Origin: Bacteriovorax sp. MedPE-SWde
GTDB lineage: Bacteria > Bdellovibrionota > Bacteriovoracia > Bacteriovoracales > Bacteriovoracaceae
Direction: 5' to 3'
Length of the DNA stretch: 64,000 nucleotides
Assembly: GCA_001874305.1 (NCBI GenBank)
Contig: MPCU01000010.1
Span: 124,001 to 188,000 of the forward strand
Part shown: piece after piece, positions 36,141 through 43,634 of the stretch
How the letters are laid out: every line of letters starts with the position of its first letter
Numbering within the stretch: position 1 is the stretch's first letter
The notes under the pieces: model-generated
The model's input: the letters and a program-made list of their open reading frames with translations, nothing else
What the model was told of the DNA's origin: nothing
The model's database searches: none
Made by a program: the position numbers and the translations under genes

Positions 36141-39008
36141 ATGTACATGAATATAGAAAAGACATTAGAAGTGAGTTCTAAGAGAGTTCGAAAGGAAGTT
36201 CAAGCTTCAATATTTGCAAGGTTGTTTGCGTTTGCTGTTGATTTTTTTATTGTTGTTATTCCGCTTCATATTCTTTTTTTGGAGTTTGGAAGTCACCTTC
36301 TTGATGTTCAATATTACGAGTTAGTAAAAGTTATTGTTGGCTATTTAGCCTATTTAATATACTGCCAATTGTTCTATCATTATTTCGGTGCTACTCCAGG
36401 GAAACTACTCGTACAGATTCAGGTTATCTCAGAGAAAGAAAGAACTTATCCTGGTTTTGTAAGAACTTTTGTTAGAGAAGTATTAGGAAGGGTTTTATCT
36501 GATATTTTTTTAGTCGGTTATTTCCTTGCTATCGCAAGACCCGATAATCGAGCACTACATGATATTATTTCCGGAACTAGAGTTGTGATAAAAAGAAAGC
36601 GCGTTAGAAAAGAAGATTGCTTTCCTAATATTATTAAAAGTATTGTTGCAGGTGTTTGCGCTATTTCTTATATATATTTTGAAAATACATATCAAGATAA
36701 GGTTGTTGAGTGGGCTAATACTCGATATTTTAGGCCATTAATAGATAAACAGCTTAACTCCAAAATGTTAATACCTAATTTAGCTCTGAACCCGTCAGGT
36801 TTGTCTAGGGCCAAGGATAAAGATCTTATAAATCAGGATTTCTTAAAAAAAGCTATAATTAAAAATTACAAATCTATTAAGTTTTTACCTAAGAAGTATG
36901 GGGTTTCTCTAGAGAACAGTAAATTATTTTTAAAACAAAGTGGTGGTAAGATAGAATATGCATCACCTTCCATGATGGCCGATGAAAATTTTTTGAGTTT
37001 AGTGAAAAATAAAGTTGTGGGAATAGAAAAAGATCTCTTAAAGGGGCAAAGAGTTAAACAAAGGATTAATCGTCTATATGACATAAAGGAAGCTACTCGT
37101 AAACCATTTGCTTTGCTTAGAATCGCCATGTCTGAGCCCCAGAAGCTTCTTGATTTTCCTCCAGAAGTTTATAATGATGGCCTGTTAAGGAAACTTGTGA
37201 TTAAGGCACCAAAGGCAATGTTATATCTTCCTGATGAAGTTCATTACTCCGATAAATTTATTACTTATTTTGTTAAGCGTCTCTCTGTTCCTGATTTATA
37301 TGCAAATAAGAAAATTAAATCGAAGTCCTTGTATACTCAACTTTTGAATGAAAAGAAAAAAGCATCTTTAGATAGAGTAAAACAGTTTAAAGCAAACATG
37401 GATGACTTTCTAAAAAATATTTCTGAGAAAGGTCATTCTATTCGTGAGAACGATTTGTCTGGAATTCCTGTTGAATTATATCAAGATGAAGGTTTTATAA
37501 ATAAACTGTGCTTATCCAACCCTCGGGTAGGGGAGTATTTACCTAGAGATACCAATATTAGCGAAAAGTCTGGTTTAATAATAGTTAATCATATCCACTC
37601 CAGTAAAAAACTACCCACCAAGCTGGTTAACAATATTAAGGTGAATAAAGTTATAGTGTCTAATTCATTTTATGCATATAATAGATTATCTCCAAAACTC
37701 AAAGGTAACAAAGAAATTACTATTGCAGCTGTAAGGAAATATCCGGCAATAATTCAATATTTACCTAAAGAATTAATTAATGATCGTGATGTATTAAATA
37801 CCGCTATAAAGATGTGGGACCCAATGCACCCTTATATTAATCAGGCCAGGTTTAAGCCTAAGAAAGCTCTCGTTCAATATATTAGTAATGACTTATTAGT
37901 TAATGATATAAATATTATTAAAGATATTTTAAAGGTTGATGCTGAGTCTGCAAGTTTTATCCCCAAAAAATTCCTGAATAATAAAGGCCTAAAGAAAGTG
38001 ATTCGTAAATCAGCGACTAATCATAGAAATAGTATTATACAAAATTTAAAAGATAGGAGTTTCTTTGAGTTGAGCGCTAATAATTTGATAATGTATAAAA
38101 ATGATAAAGAAGTAGCTTTCCTAGTTGCTTCAGGTCGTACACATTGTAAATCATTTAAATCATTTGCTGAAAGTATTAGGAACGATAAGAAGTTTGTTAT
38201 TAAGGCCCTTGGAAGTCGCGGATGTATGGATAAATTACTGACAGATTTACAAATGCAAGATAAAGAAATTATGTCCGCTGCAATTAAAGCTAGTTTTTCA
38301 AATATAGCCAAAGTCAAAGGGTCACTTATATCTGATAAGGATCTAAGTATTCTTGCTCTTAAAGAGTATATAGGGGCAATGGATAGTCGCTATTCTAATT
38401 ATGAATTTCATAAAAAATATATTGCCTCTACTTTACATACTGATAGAGATATTATGGCTCTTGCAATCTTAGCGAACCCTGAGTTTATTTCCTTAGTTCC
38501 ATCTGACATGTTAAAGACGGAACCATTTGCAAGTAAAAGATTATCTCTCTTAGAGAAGATTAAAGATAGTTTTTTATACAAAATAAGAAATCTAAAGAGG
38601 AGTGATATTACTTTCGGCAAAGTACCTATGGTACCGAAAGAATGTAATAAAAATAAGAAAGTATTACTAGAGGTGTTAAGATTAGCGCCTTACTTGATGG
38701 CAGGGGTCGATAAAAGCTTAATTGATGACAAAGATATAGTGGAGGCAGTTTTCTCTGGTTGGGAAGTCGATAAGGACATGCCAAGATTAATTGAGCAAAT
38801 GTTGTTCTTTACGAGAAGACAGAATATTAAACTATCGACGAATCCTCTTCAGAACCTAGGTGAAAAGTTTAGAAGTGATAAGAAGCTAGTTTTACGTGCA
38901 CTAAATATATCAGCCTTAAGCTATGGTGATGTTCATTATACTTTAAAAGAAGACCCTGACATAAAAAAGTATAAAGATGAATACTCTAGAATACGAAGAA
39001 GGTTCTAG
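36141..39008 (+). CDS. RDD-family membrane protein fused to DUF4116-like repeat region
   Basis: 955 residues. Residues 20-155 are an RDD domain with three hydrophobic helices (IFARLFAFAVDFFIVVIPLH; FGATPGKLLVQIQVISEKE; DNRALHDIISGTRVV), and a further hydrophobic helix follows near 170-185. The remaining 750 residues contain about ten degenerate units of roughly 40-60 residues with a pattern like IIQYLPKELINDRDVLNTAI or AGVDKSLIDDKDIVEAVFSG, which resembles DUF4116 repeats. I do not know this combination from any described protein. The repeats would sit on one side of the inner membrane. The gene is alone, with about 290 bases of gap on each side. Confidence 0.78.
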   Translation: MYMNIEKTLEVSSKRVRKEVQASIFARLFAFAVDFFIVVIPLHILFLEFGSHLLDVQYYELVKVIVGYLAYLIYCQLFYHYFGATPGKLLVQIQVISEKERTYPGFVRTFVREVLGRVLSDIFLVGYFLAIARPDNRALHDIISGTRVVIKRKRVRKEDCFPNIIKSIVAGVCAISYIYFENTYQDKVVEWANTRYFRPLIDKQLNSKMLIPNLALNPSGLSRAKDKDLINQDFLKKAIIKNYKSIKFLPKKYGVSLENSKLFLKQSGGKIEYASPSMMADENFLSLVKNKVVGIEKDLLKGQRVKQRINRLYDIKEATRKPFALLRIAMSEPQKLLDFPPEVYNDGLLRKLVIKAPKAMLYLPDEVHYSDKFITYFVKRLSVPDLYANKKIKSKSLYTQLLNEKKKASLDRVKQFKANMDDFLKNISEKGHSIRENDLSGIPVELYQDEGFINKLCLSNPRVGEYLPRDTNISEKSGLIIVNHIHSSKKLPTKLVNNIKVNKVIVSNSFYAYNRLSPKLKGNKEITIAAVRKYPAIIQYLPKELINDRDVLNTAIKMWDPMHPYINQARFKPKKALVQYISNDLLVNDINIIKDILKVDAESASFIPKKFLNNKGLKKVIRKSATNHRNSIIQNLKDRSFFELSANNLIMYKNDKEVAFLVASGRTHCKSFKSFAESIRNDKKFVIKALGSRGCMDKLLTDLQMQDKEIMSAAIKASFSNIAKVKGSLISDKDLSILALKEYIGAMDSRYSNYEFHKKYIASTLHTDRDIMALAILANPEFISLVPSDMLKTEPFASKRLSLLEKIKDSFLYKIRNLKRSDITFGKVPMVPKECNKNKKVLLEVLRLAPYLMAGVDKSLIDDKDIVEAVFSGWEVDKDMPRLIEQMLFFTRRQNIKLSTNPLQNLGEKFRSDKKLVLRALNISALSYGDVHYTLKEDPDIKKYKDEYSRIRRRF

Positions 39009-39036
39009 ATCGCATTGCTTTTTGATGACTCCCTTT

Positions 39037-39064: not shown

Positions 39065-39089
39065 GTAGAAAGAAGGGGGGCTGGCTAAG

Positions 39090-39224
39090 AAAATCCACCA
39101 TTCAAAACAGCAATCTCTTCCATCTAAAGAATTTACCTTAAGTTCATCTATAATTGTATCATAAAGTTTTTTTATAATTAATAGTGGTTGGTTTTGAAAA
39201 GAGAGTCTAATTCGTCCTATCCTT
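39090..39224. repeat. Dispersed intergenic repeat of about 135 bp, copy A
   Basis: Aligns end to end with 39783-39915. Shared ends are CAAAACAGCAATCTCTTCC on the left and TCCTATCCTT on the right, with a less conserved AT-rich middle. It fills the gap between the RDD-fusion gene and the small secreted gene at 39288. Confidence 0.8.
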
Positions 39225-39761: not shown

Positions 39762-39782
39762 TGTAATTATTTGTTAACTAAT

Positions 39783-39915
39783 AAAATCCAACATCCAAAA
39801 CAGCAATCTCTTCCTTCTAAGATAAAAACCTCAAAATCATTTACAATTTTAACATATATTTTTTAATAATTAATAGAGGATGGTTTAAAAAGAGTGTCTA
39901 ATCCGTCCTATCCTT
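39783..39915. repeat. Dispersed intergenic repeat of about 135 bp, copy B
   Basis: 133 bases aligning with copy A (39090-39224), same orientation. Together they flank the gene at 39288-39761. Confidence 0.8.
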
Positions 39916-40045: not shown

Positions 40046-40918
40046 ATGAGAATACAGTTTTTGGCCCTTTTATTTCTAATCCTCTTTAATAGTTGCTCCT
40101 CATCTCCAATACGAGAACCTTCTTCTCTTAATTTGAGAGAAAATTGCTTTGAAGCACTGTCATACTTTCAAGATAGATACATTAAAGGACTTAAAGAGTC
40201 CCAGATCCTAGATGGAGAATTGACTCCAATAAATAATAGAGAAAGAAGTGAAGTAGAGCTCTCAATGAAGTTTAGTGAAGTTGAGGGAGAGTTAACTGGT
40301 ATTCATCGCGGAGCTGGCTCAACTGATCCAACCTTTTATGCTTTAGATGATGGGATTAAGGTTGTTTGGAAAGAGCATAAGAAAATAAAGCTATCAAACT
40401 ATAGGGCCGAAGTATTGGCCTTTGAGTTAGATCGTTTATGGGGATTCAATCTTGTTCCAGAGACTGTTGAGAGAAGTATTGATGGGGGAGTAGGTTCTGT
40501 ACAGCTATTTAAAGAGTCGATAACTGGACCGTTACTAAAGTATAATATTAAAAATAATATGTCTGAAGAAGCAATAGCTAGAGTTCAACATAACTTATCT
40601 AAGCAATCAATGTTTGATTATTTAATAGAGAATAATGACAGAAATGTTAATAATTATCTTTTTACGTTAGAGGGAGAACTCTATTCGATTGATAATGCTG
40701 CCAGTTTTACAGGGATAGGCTTTTATCAGAAGAGCTTTGCTGCGAGAGAAGAAGATATTAAGGCCTTTCTAAGTACTGATGAAGGTGAAGCGGTATTTAA
40801 GAATATTGTTTCAAGCTATGATGAATCATTTAAAAAGCAAATCATCGAGTATATTGGAAAAAAAGATGCGCGAAGATTCTTTGGGCGTATTGAAAGAATA
40901 ATTCAAGTAAACGATTAG
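40046..40918 (+). CDS. Lipoprotein with atypical kinase features (PI3/4K- or Fam20-like)
   Basis: 290 residues. Hydrophobic leader ending LFNSC (C17) suggests a lipoprotein. The body shows a kinase-like order: glycine-rich stretch GIHRGAGSTDPT (85-96), Lys in GIKVVWKEH (K109), acidic helix YRAEVLAFELDRLWGF (E122), catalytic-loop-like MFDYLIENNDRNVNNYLF (D198, N203) and metal-site-like YSIDNAASF (D216). This resembles the DR-x3-N and IDN/IDH pattern of bacterial PI3/4K-like and Fam20C-like kinases. Substrate and activity are unknown; the fold call is an inference from motifs. An extracytoplasmic kinase would be unusual. Confidence 0.65.
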   Translation: MRIQFLALLFLILFNSCSSSPIREPSSLNLRENCFEALSYFQDRYIKGLKESQILDGELTPINNRERSEVELSMKFSEVEGELTGIHRGAGSTDPTFYALDDGIKVVWKEHKKIKLSNYRAEVLAFELDRLWGFNLVPETVERSIDGGVGSVQLFKESITGPLLKYNIKNNMSEEAIARVQHNLSKQSMFDYLIENNDRNVNNYLFTLEGELYSIDNAASFTGIGFYQKSFAAREEDIKAFLSTDEGEAVFKNIVSSYDESFKKQIIEYIGKKDARRFFGRIERIIQVND

Positions 40919-40989
40919 AATAAATTTATACATGCTTTCTTTACTTTGTAGGTATGAAGAAAGTATAAGTAGCTTTCTAAGCAAAACAA

Positions 40990-41017
40990 TCGATCAAAAT
41001 AGCACTCTCTTCCAATC
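40990..41017. repeat. Partial copy C of the 135-bp repeat (left end)
   Basis: ATCAAAATAGCACTCTCTTCC corresponds with several changes to the left end of copies A and B. The rest is not recognisable. Confidence 0.4.
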
Positions 41018-41828: not shown

Positions 41829-43634
41829 ATGAGTTTTTATTTACGGTATTTTACAATTCTACTCTTTTTACTAAGTGGACTTTACTCCTATGGGGTAAGT
41901 AATATACTTGTTCTTAACTCTTACCACCCTCAATATAAATGGACCGAAAGATTAAATGACGGCATTCGTGATACCTTTAAAGGGGTAGTACCTCCAGAGA
42001 AAATACACGTAGAGTACATGGATGGTAGAGTCTTTTCAGAAGACGTTGCTTACCTAGAAAAGCTAAGAAATCTGTTAGCGTATAAATACAAAAATGTGGA
42101 GTTAGACTTAATTATTAGTACAGATGATTATGCTTTTAATTTTCTTTTAGATGTACATTCTGAGATCTTTCCTAATACCCCTGTCGTGTTTGGAGGCGTA
42201 AATTTTTTTAAGAAAGATATGCTGAAAGGAAGGCCGTTCTTTACTGGGGTTCTTGAAGGGACAAGTATTGAAGAAAATATTAGGCTTATTCAAAAGCTTC
42301 ACCCTAACACGAACGAAATTGTCTTGTTGTCCGATGATACGAAGCTTGGAAGAGCATTAACAGAGGATGCTCGAAAGTTTATAAAGAGTCATAAACTCGA
42401 TAGTTTAGTGAAAGTATATGACAAATTTACTTTCGAGTCTCTAAATCAAAAAGTAGCTGAGAAGAATAAAGATGCGGTCTTTTTACTACTTGCTATACAT
42501 GCTGATAGAGATGGTGTTTACTTTTCTTATGATGAACATTTTATAAAATTAGCTAAGACTGCAGTTGCTCCTATTTATTCTATGTGGGGTGTTCTTATGG
42601 GGTCAGGAACGATTGGCGGTTATATGAATAACCCGTACGCTCATGGGAAGGAGATAACAGAAATAGGAATCTCAATTTTAAATGGCATTAATGCAAATAT
42701 GATTCCTGTAAAAAATCGAACAAGTTATACACCACATTTTGATTACAATGTGCTCAAAAAATTTAATATATCTTCTGATGTTCTTCCTGATAATGCTAAA
42801 GTACACAATAGGCCAATAAGTTATTACCAAGAGAATAAGAGGTTGATAAATATTGCTTCTTTCGTTTTTGTTGTTCTTGTTACTTTTATAATTTTCTTAA
42901 AGGTTCTCGTCGATCAGAGAACAAGAGAGGCCAACTTGAATGCAAGTAATCTCGAAAAGTCGAAGAATCGAATGAGGGATTTTGTTGGGATTGTTGCTCA
43001 TGACTTAAGAGCTCCTGTAGGCAATATCCTTTCTTTTTCGCAGGCGCTAGAAGAAAACTCTGAAGATCATAAAGAGATTGTTCCATATATTTTAAAATCG
43101 GCAGAAAAGTCTATTCATCTAATAAATAATATTCTGGATATCTCGGCCATTGAAGCTGGAAAAGTCAAAATGAATAAAGAAGAAGCAGACTTACATGAAA
43201 TTATTCTGGATATTATTCATGAAGTTACTTTTTTAACAAAGGGTAAGAACTTGAGTTTATCGACAAACTTAAACTCTAAGCTAATGGTACTCATTGATAA
43301 ACAGAGGATAACTCAGATATTACAAAATCTCTTAACTAATTCGATAAAGTTTACGGGACAAAATGGAAGGGTAGAGATAGTTGTAAAAGTAGATGGTGAC
43401 ACTGTAAATGTATCAGTGAAAGATACTGGAGTGGGAATACCAAAAGATATTATTGGTAATATATTTGATACCTCCAAGCATACCTCAAGAGTTGGTACTG
43501 AAGGAGAGTCAGGAACAGGATATGGGTTACCATTAGTCTACAATCTTGTAAGAGAGCATGGTGGTGCTCTGACGGTTGAGAGTGATGAGAATATAGGTAG
43601 TAATTTTACTTTTACTCTTAATAAAGTAAATTAG
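41829..43634 (+). CDS. Histidine kinase with periplasmic ABC-substrate-binding-like sensor
   Basis: 601 residues. A signal-anchor is followed by a periplasmic domain (25-330) of the ABC_sub_bind/TrpX-like type: NILVLNSYHPQYKWTERLND, DLIISTDDYAFNFLLD, GGVNFFKKDML. One transmembrane helix near 338-360 leads to HisKA (IVAHDLRAPVGN), N box QNLLTNSIKFTG, DTGVGIP and lid/G2 TSRVGTEGESGTGYGLP. Related sensors are fused to kinases or GGDEF domains in other bacteria. No response regulator is adjacent. The ligand is unknown. No clear ribosome site precedes ATG 41829. Confidence 0.9.
   Translation: MSFYLRYFTILLFLLSGLYSYGVSNILVLNSYHPQYKWTERLNDGIRDTFKGVVPPEKIHVEYMDGRVFSEDVAYLEKLRNLLAYKYKNVELDLIISTDDYAFNFLLDVHSEIFPNTPVVFGGVNFFKKDMLKGRPFFTGVLEGTSIEENIRLIQKLHPNTNEIVLLSDDTKLGRALTEDARKFIKSHKLDSLVKVYDKFTFESLNQKVAEKNKDAVFLLLAIHADRDGVYFSYDEHFIKLAKTAVAPIYSMWGVLMGSGTIGGYMNNPYAHGKEITEIGISILNGINANMIPVKNRTSYTPHFDYNVLKKFNISSDVLPDNAKVHNRPISYYQENKRLINIASFVFVVLVTFIIFLKVLVDQRTREANLNASNLEKSKNRMRDFVGIVAHDLRAPVGNILSFSQALEENSEDHKEIVPYILKSAEKSIHLINNILDISAIEAGKVKMNKEEADLHEIILDIIHEVTFLTKGKNLSLSTNLNSKLMVLIDKQRITQILQNLLTNSIKFTGQNGRVEIVVKVDGDTVNVSVKDTGVGIPKDIIGNIFDTSKHTSRVGTEGESGTGYGLPLVYNLVREHGGALTVESDENIGSNFTFTLNKVN

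Follow-up and report, generated by a model that had tools for sequence, protein, structure and literature searches.

A predicted exported kinase-like protein with a PI4K type II/Fam20-like fold in a bacterium of the Halobacteriovorax group

The gene and its neighbours

The window analysed here, by which we mean the whole 64,000-nucleotide stretch of a Bacteriovorax sp. MedPE-SWde contig, comes from a genome of the Halobacteriovorax group, the cultured members of which are predators of Gram-negative bacteria. On its forward strand, positions 40046–40918 form a 290-codon open reading frame (ORF) that runs from an ATG and encodes a 290 amino acid kinase-like protein, predicted to be exported and to be of the PI4KII/Fam20 type; the opposite strand of the same stretch has stop codons throughout. 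The protein’s closest counterpart is L026 (labelled Halobacteriovorax marinus isolate 36_234_T64), with which it shares 68% identity in a gap-free alignment of all 290 residues. That the two genes differ at 67 first, 48 second and 143 third codon positions, with a dN/dS of ~0.13 (Nei–Gojobori; a rough value, dS being near saturation), indicates a real gene under purifying selection and rules out a spurious ORF or a pseudogene.

The genes nearby encode small secreted proteins. No neighbour is common to the window locus, L026, L107 or the other loci compared, so the gene stands alone and its context offers neither a conserved operon partner nor a substrate. A flanking histidine kinase is not evidently a linked partner: of 11 related genomes tested, only three show a match to it at E ≤ 1e-40. 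The histidine kinase at 41829–43634 has an ABC-substrate-binding-like extracytoplasmic sensor, and its counterpart in G004, a genome of the same genus, contains internal stops. Either side of the kinase-like gene lies an intergenic repeat (39080–39224, 39773–39915 and, in part, 40972–41014), ~140 bp long and diverged, with blocks that are 78–91% identical and a core of AAAACAGCAATCTCTTCC; a second repeat, CTTTCTTTCCTACGAAACGGATTGGAACGCTTG, is found at 39033 and 41119. Positions 36141–39008 encode a 955 amino acid protein in which an RDD membrane domain precedes repeated DUF4116 units.

Active site, fold and relation to known kinases

The original prediction had picked out a series of residues in the arrangement of PI3/4K-like and Fam20C-like atypical kinases, and translation of the ORF places every one of them as described: G89 and G91 in a Gly-rich segment, V106-V107-W108-K109, E122, D198-R199-N200-x2-N203 and I215-D216-N217. 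The predicted Gly-rich ATP loop (residues 89–95, GAGSTDP; 40310–40330, forward strand as for all features of the gene), in which G91 is invariant among close relatives, is followed by K109 (40370–40372), the putative β3 ATP-binding lysine of a VVWK motif for which Fam20 and most relatives have FKP, and by E122 (40409–40411), the glutamate of helix αC (NYRAEVLAFELDR), which aligns with NAEIAAFHLDR of Fam20. The segment after the hinge (residues 158–176; 40517–40573), delimited from the alignment and the model, is longer than in most relatives, a property common to P0001, L026 and L052, and residues 161–170 are modelled with low confidence (pLDDT ~51). Beyond this lie the catalytic loop D198-R199-N-V-N-N203 (40637–40654), containing the presumptive catalytic Asp and metal-binding Asn, the metal-binding ‘DFG-like’ motif I215-D216-N217 (40688–40696; compare IDNG in PI4KII and LDN in Fam20) and the C-terminal helical part of the C-lobe (residues 231–289; 40736–40912), which is seen in the model and where the alignments with PI4KII and Fam20 extend as far as residue 290.

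Conservation follows the same residues. K109, E122, D198, R199, N203 and D216 are all invariant in seven close relatives in a Bdellovibrionota alignment; among 15 relatives, down to ~20% identity, there is no variation at E122, D191, D198, R199, N203 or D216, and K109 is >90% conserved; no other columns in the family are conserved as well as these seven kinase catalytic residues. A loose regular expression for the whole ordered motif matched 62 of 200,000 shuffles of the protein and one of the 71 ORFs of at least 100 codons in the window, the kinase-like ORF alone. Conservation in the 7 and the 15 relatives, which is by far the stronger evidence, together with the shuffle test, rules out a chance motif.

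The AlphaFold2 model of the protein (pLDDT 86.1, pTM 0.82) has the two-lobed fold and the full motif set of the PI3/4K-like branch of the protein-kinase-like fold. Its best structural match is to PI4K type II (PI4KII-beta; Z 17.7 over 214 residues, 3.1 Å), with further matches to hydra Fam20 (Z 16.2), to CtkA of Helicobacter pylori (Z 15.0, 12% identity) and to VPS34 (Z ~11), and Foldseek aligns the model to PI4KII-alpha with an E value of 2.2e-8. In a search of the PDB with a profile built from Bdellovibrionota sequences only, Fam20B (1.3e-8), Fam20A, Fam20C and PI4K type II (1.5e-6) rank first. With a wider family profile, Fam20B and Fam20C are reached at 1.5e-22 and PI4KII at 1.2e-12, but this profile contains Myxococcota sequences that are themselves Fam20, making the Bdellovibrionota-only profile the fairer test. 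The structure prediction that had been proposed as a check was run and yields a kinase fold, not one unrelated to kinases, and the PI3/4K-like and Fam20C-like arrangement first read from the motifs is supported by both the PI4KII/Fam20/CtkA-type model and the Bdellovibrionota-only profiles. Of the three folds suggested for comparison, PI4K type II (for the PI3/4K-like folds) and Fam20 are the closest and HipA-like folds lie further away; HipA-type entries do not feature prominently in the list of fold matches, an absence that excludes nothing, and the HipA Pfam domain has no match in the protein. Sequence and model together leave us confident that the protein has a kinase fold and that its active site is intact.

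Taken alone, the protein matches no curated family above cut-off. Pfam PF00454 (PI3_PI4_kinase) scores 23.5 bits (E 5.9e-5), under its gathering cut-off of 27.1, and the best curated bacterial model by sequence, the SCO1664 family (NCBIfam TIGR03843; E 3.8e-10, residues 120–222), scores 39.5 bits, far under its curated equivalog cut-off of 172.4. Although PI4K type II is the nearest fold, and its DRxxxN and IDN motifs have the same arrangement as D198RNVNN203 and I215DN when aligned with PI4KII-beta, the protein cannot be filed there: besides falling under the PF00454 cut-off, it is bacterial, carries an export signal and lacks the palmitoylated CCPCC motif, its only cysteines being Cys17 and Cys34.

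Fam20A, Fam20B and Fam20C are extracytoplasmic kinases; the window protein, to judge from its sequence, has an export signal that may place it outside the cytoplasm as well. Its αC block NYRAEVLAFELDRLWGFNLVPETVER matches NAEIAAFHLDRLLGF..PPVVGR of Fam20. Despite this and the nearness of the fold, Fam20 is also rejected as a family assignment. PF06702 (Fam20; gathering cut-off 26.8) has no match in the protein at E ≤ 1, and none over cut-off in its own genome or in any of 291 Bdellovibrionota genomes. The catalytic loop of Fam20 is DRxxxE (DRHHYE) whereas that of the window protein is DRxxxN, with N203 replacing the Glu, and both the Fam20 insertions and the conserved disulfide cysteines are absent, one of the two cysteines present being at the presumed lipid position. 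In a tree, the protein falls outside the Fam20 clade. As a control, the Myxococcota protein L034 was modelled with the same sequence set and gave a Z of 24.6 to hydra Fam20 and of 17.2 to PI4KII; the method thus separates a Fam20 from the window protein, the modelled fold of which is between PI4KII and Fam20. By the features tested, the protein would appear to work like an exported atypical kinase that is neither Fam20 nor PI4KII.

Fam20 proteins do occur in Myxococcota. Proteins over the PF06702 cut-off were found in 57 of 240 sampled Polyangia genomes, about a quarter, and in none of 14 control genomes (loci L033:5548–6801, L034:930–2141 and L070–L100). One of these, used alone, finds human FAM20A by phmmer at 6e-18, and several or many of them have lipoprotein-type signals. 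In a tree, hydra Fam20, the one eukaryote included and on a long branch, sits among the Myxococcota proteins, the enclosing groups having support of 100/97 and 98/93. Judged by Pfam, phmmer and model-based fold tests, these nearby Myxococcota proteins are Fam20. A survey of Legionella kinases found FAM20 to be eukaryote- or Metazoa-specific within its set (PMC9758233). Our literature search, with most subscription papers beyond its reach, found no paper describing either the kinase-like family or Myxococcota Fam20, and novelty is not thereby proven.

Two bacterial kinases invite comparison. CtkA, which is secreted and shares the fold, is reported to use a type IV secretion system (PMC5536186); the window protein has a Sec/lipoprotein signal instead. 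CotH, said to resemble Fam20C, is needed for the spore coat (PMC12189002), but it works in Bacillus and the window protein has no Pfam CotH match at E ≤ 1. The structural match to CtkA, together with the polymorphic-toxin layout that the long relatives described below resemble in having a C-terminal kinase domain, could be taken to indicate a HipA/CtkA-type toxin kinase without cognate antitoxin, injected or released as an effector. We consider this improbable: among the matches listed, no HipA-type fold fits as well as PI4KII and Fam20, and no HipB-like or immunity-like partner is recognised beside the gene.

The predicted export signal

The N-terminus of the protein, MRIQFLALLFLILFNSC, comprises a hydrophobic segment and then Cys17. 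Residues 1–16 form the putative signal peptide (MRIQFLALLFLILFNS; 40046–40093; hydrophobicity 2.9), which is kept in orthologues, and are followed by Cys17 (40094–40096), presumed to be lipidated, by Ser18 and by a linker and helices that precede the kinase core (residues 18–77; 40097–40276), as delimited by DSSP of the model. The original prediction had this protein as a lipoprotein, and an export signal that is conserved in the family and the presence of Cys17 agree with that. The lipobox itself, L-F-N-S-C, does not, being non-canonical with N at −2, although the two closest orthologues have canonical lipoboxes (VLVGC in L026 and LLSSC in L052). We infer that Cys17 is lipidated, in which case the Ser at +2 suggests, by the E. 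coli rule, sorting to the outer membrane.

An export-type N-terminus is present in 18 of the 19 Bdellovibrionota relatives with an intact start (one of the 18 being at threshold), compared with 22 of 51 long ORFs in the window and none of five relatives on viral contigs under the same rule. The rule is one of simple hydrophobicity, and the starts of the relatives were picked to favour a signal peptide, the window control having been given a similar choice; we read the 18 of 19 as supportive of export, not as exact. Residues 30–58, after the signal, are identical to L026 at 17 of 29 positions (59%), and this conservation argues against an internal cytoplasmic start.

The N-terminus could instead be a membrane anchor for a kinase domain that stays in the cytoplasm, making the protein an ordinary PI3/4K-like kinase of the SCO1664 kind. 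The TIGR03843/SCO1664 relatives are cytoplasmic as far as is known, and the imperfect lipobox of the window copy is in keeping with such an arrangement. However, the canonical lipoboxes of the orthologues, the type-I-like signals found elsewhere in the family and the export signals of 18 of 19 relatives all speak against it, as does the N-in/C-out topology expected from Arg2 before the hydrophobic segment and the lack of net positive charge after it. A cytoplasmic kinase domain is accordingly very unlikely in our view, while the sequence makes export of the protein from the cytoplasm highly probable.

Family and possible function

The window protein belongs to an uncharacterised Bdellovibrionota clade, nearly all members of which have export signals. 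Of 129 genomes in the taxonomic family, 19 carry a relative at E ≤ 1e-5, and the close subclade of the window protein, L026 and L052 (support 100/96) was found in only three genomes; with so patchy a distribution, the gene cannot be a core predation gene. The window genome encodes a second, 535 amino acid paralogue (G000:C9:370839, L018) that has its own signal peptide and passes the PI3_PI4_kinase cut-off with 33.8 bits. Other relatives are longer. L028 (3214–6681) encodes a secreted-looking protein of 1156 amino acids that matches no Pfam family and has its kinase domain at the C-terminus, and L108 (5461–9810, reverse strand) one of 1449 amino acids in which a signal peptide is followed by a series of ~75-residue repeats (motif LYLLSEKQFNALPDRTVLYSIDG), with the kinase domain last. 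Long exported proteins with a C-terminal enzyme domain would, by analogy, have the layout of released effectors. A further Bdellovibrionota protein, of 1612 amino acids (L020, 4529–9364, reverse strand), contains two PI3/4K-like domains and an HExxH-like motif.

A mobile or phage origin for the gene was rejected: tblastn with the window protein against 50,697 phage and 72,556 plasmid records gave no match, and its distant relatives on viral contigs lack signal peptides. These viral contigs (L036:3476–4600, L037:3653–4552, L041:2813–4525 and L042:3404–4603) encode the same PI3/4K-like domain, and among the BFVD matches with a PI3/4K-like fold are phage proteins annotated as ADP-ribosyltransferase and as HK97 portal protein; PHROG matches were to families of unknown function. 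A role in anti-phage defence was likewise set aside, PADLOC matches being weak only (best 0.0021).

We think it likely that the protein, with its PI4K-type-II/Fam20-like kinase fold, acts as an ATP-dependent phosphotransferase that is exported and probably anchored in the outer membrane. Going by the anatomy of the family, Mg/Mn-ATP would be held by the Gly loop and by K109 in its pairing with E122, N203 and D216 would hold the metal and D198 would activate the acceptor hydroxyl, the γ-phosphate passing to a hydroxyl of an extracytoplasmic target that may be a protein Ser/Thr, a glycan or a lipid head group. From sequence and model, real phosphotransfer activity seems quite likely, though it is not guaranteed because pseudokinases and non-kinase transferases can have folds of this sort too. 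A pseudokinase has usually lost part of its catalytic or metal-binding residues, and the window protein has kept all of them under strong selection, which weighs against a kinase fold that is inactive or that transfers a group other than phosphate, such as AMP or glutamate. The scarcity of ATP outside the cytoplasm would suit such a protein, and SidJ and SelO are cited as kinase-fold proteins with other chemistry (PMC7948968); on balance we judge this explanation unlikely.

As an active phosphotransferase, the enzyme would be tethered outside the cytoplasm. Little ATP is available in the periplasm of a free cell, and it is because of this scarcity that the kinase would most likely work where ATP is to be had beyond the predator’s cytoplasm, either within or against prey or at the surface of the predator while prey is being lysed. 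The invaded prey cell or its lysate would be the most economical setting, with the predator’s own surface about as likely; that the target is a prey molecule is something we propose only tentatively. The exported kinase may equally well be thought of as modifying the predator’s own envelope (surface proteins, LPS or glycans) and not prey, using ATP from prey lysis or growth. The predicted lipoprotein form and the one small domain point to a fixed location in the predator’s own envelope, the patchy distribution fits variable surface chemistry, and Fam20 relatives act on secreted proteins and glycans, Fam20B on glycans (PMC5865150). However, no adjoining envelope gene is common to the three orthologous loci, and the long secreted-looking relatives, with the kinase domain at their C-terminus, resemble released effectors more closely, so that we hold an own-envelope role to be possible but short of probable.

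To our knowledge, nearly all known bacterial kinases are either cytoplasmic or delivered to host cells by injection. A kinase that has a full active site but is Sec-exported and membrane-anchored would raise the question of where its ATP comes from and where its target lies. In a predator living within other bacteria, this question becomes testable. Animal Fam20 and PI4KII are also connected, through this family, to exported proteins of bacteria. It is conceivable, though we consider it rather doubtful at present, that this clade of exported PI4KII/Fam20-type kinases provides predatory Bdellovibrionota with surface or released effectors, which would draw on prey ATP within the invaded cell to phosphorylate molecules of the prey. 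If true, this would be a bacterial system of extracellular phosphorylation parallel to the secretory-pathway kinases of animals.
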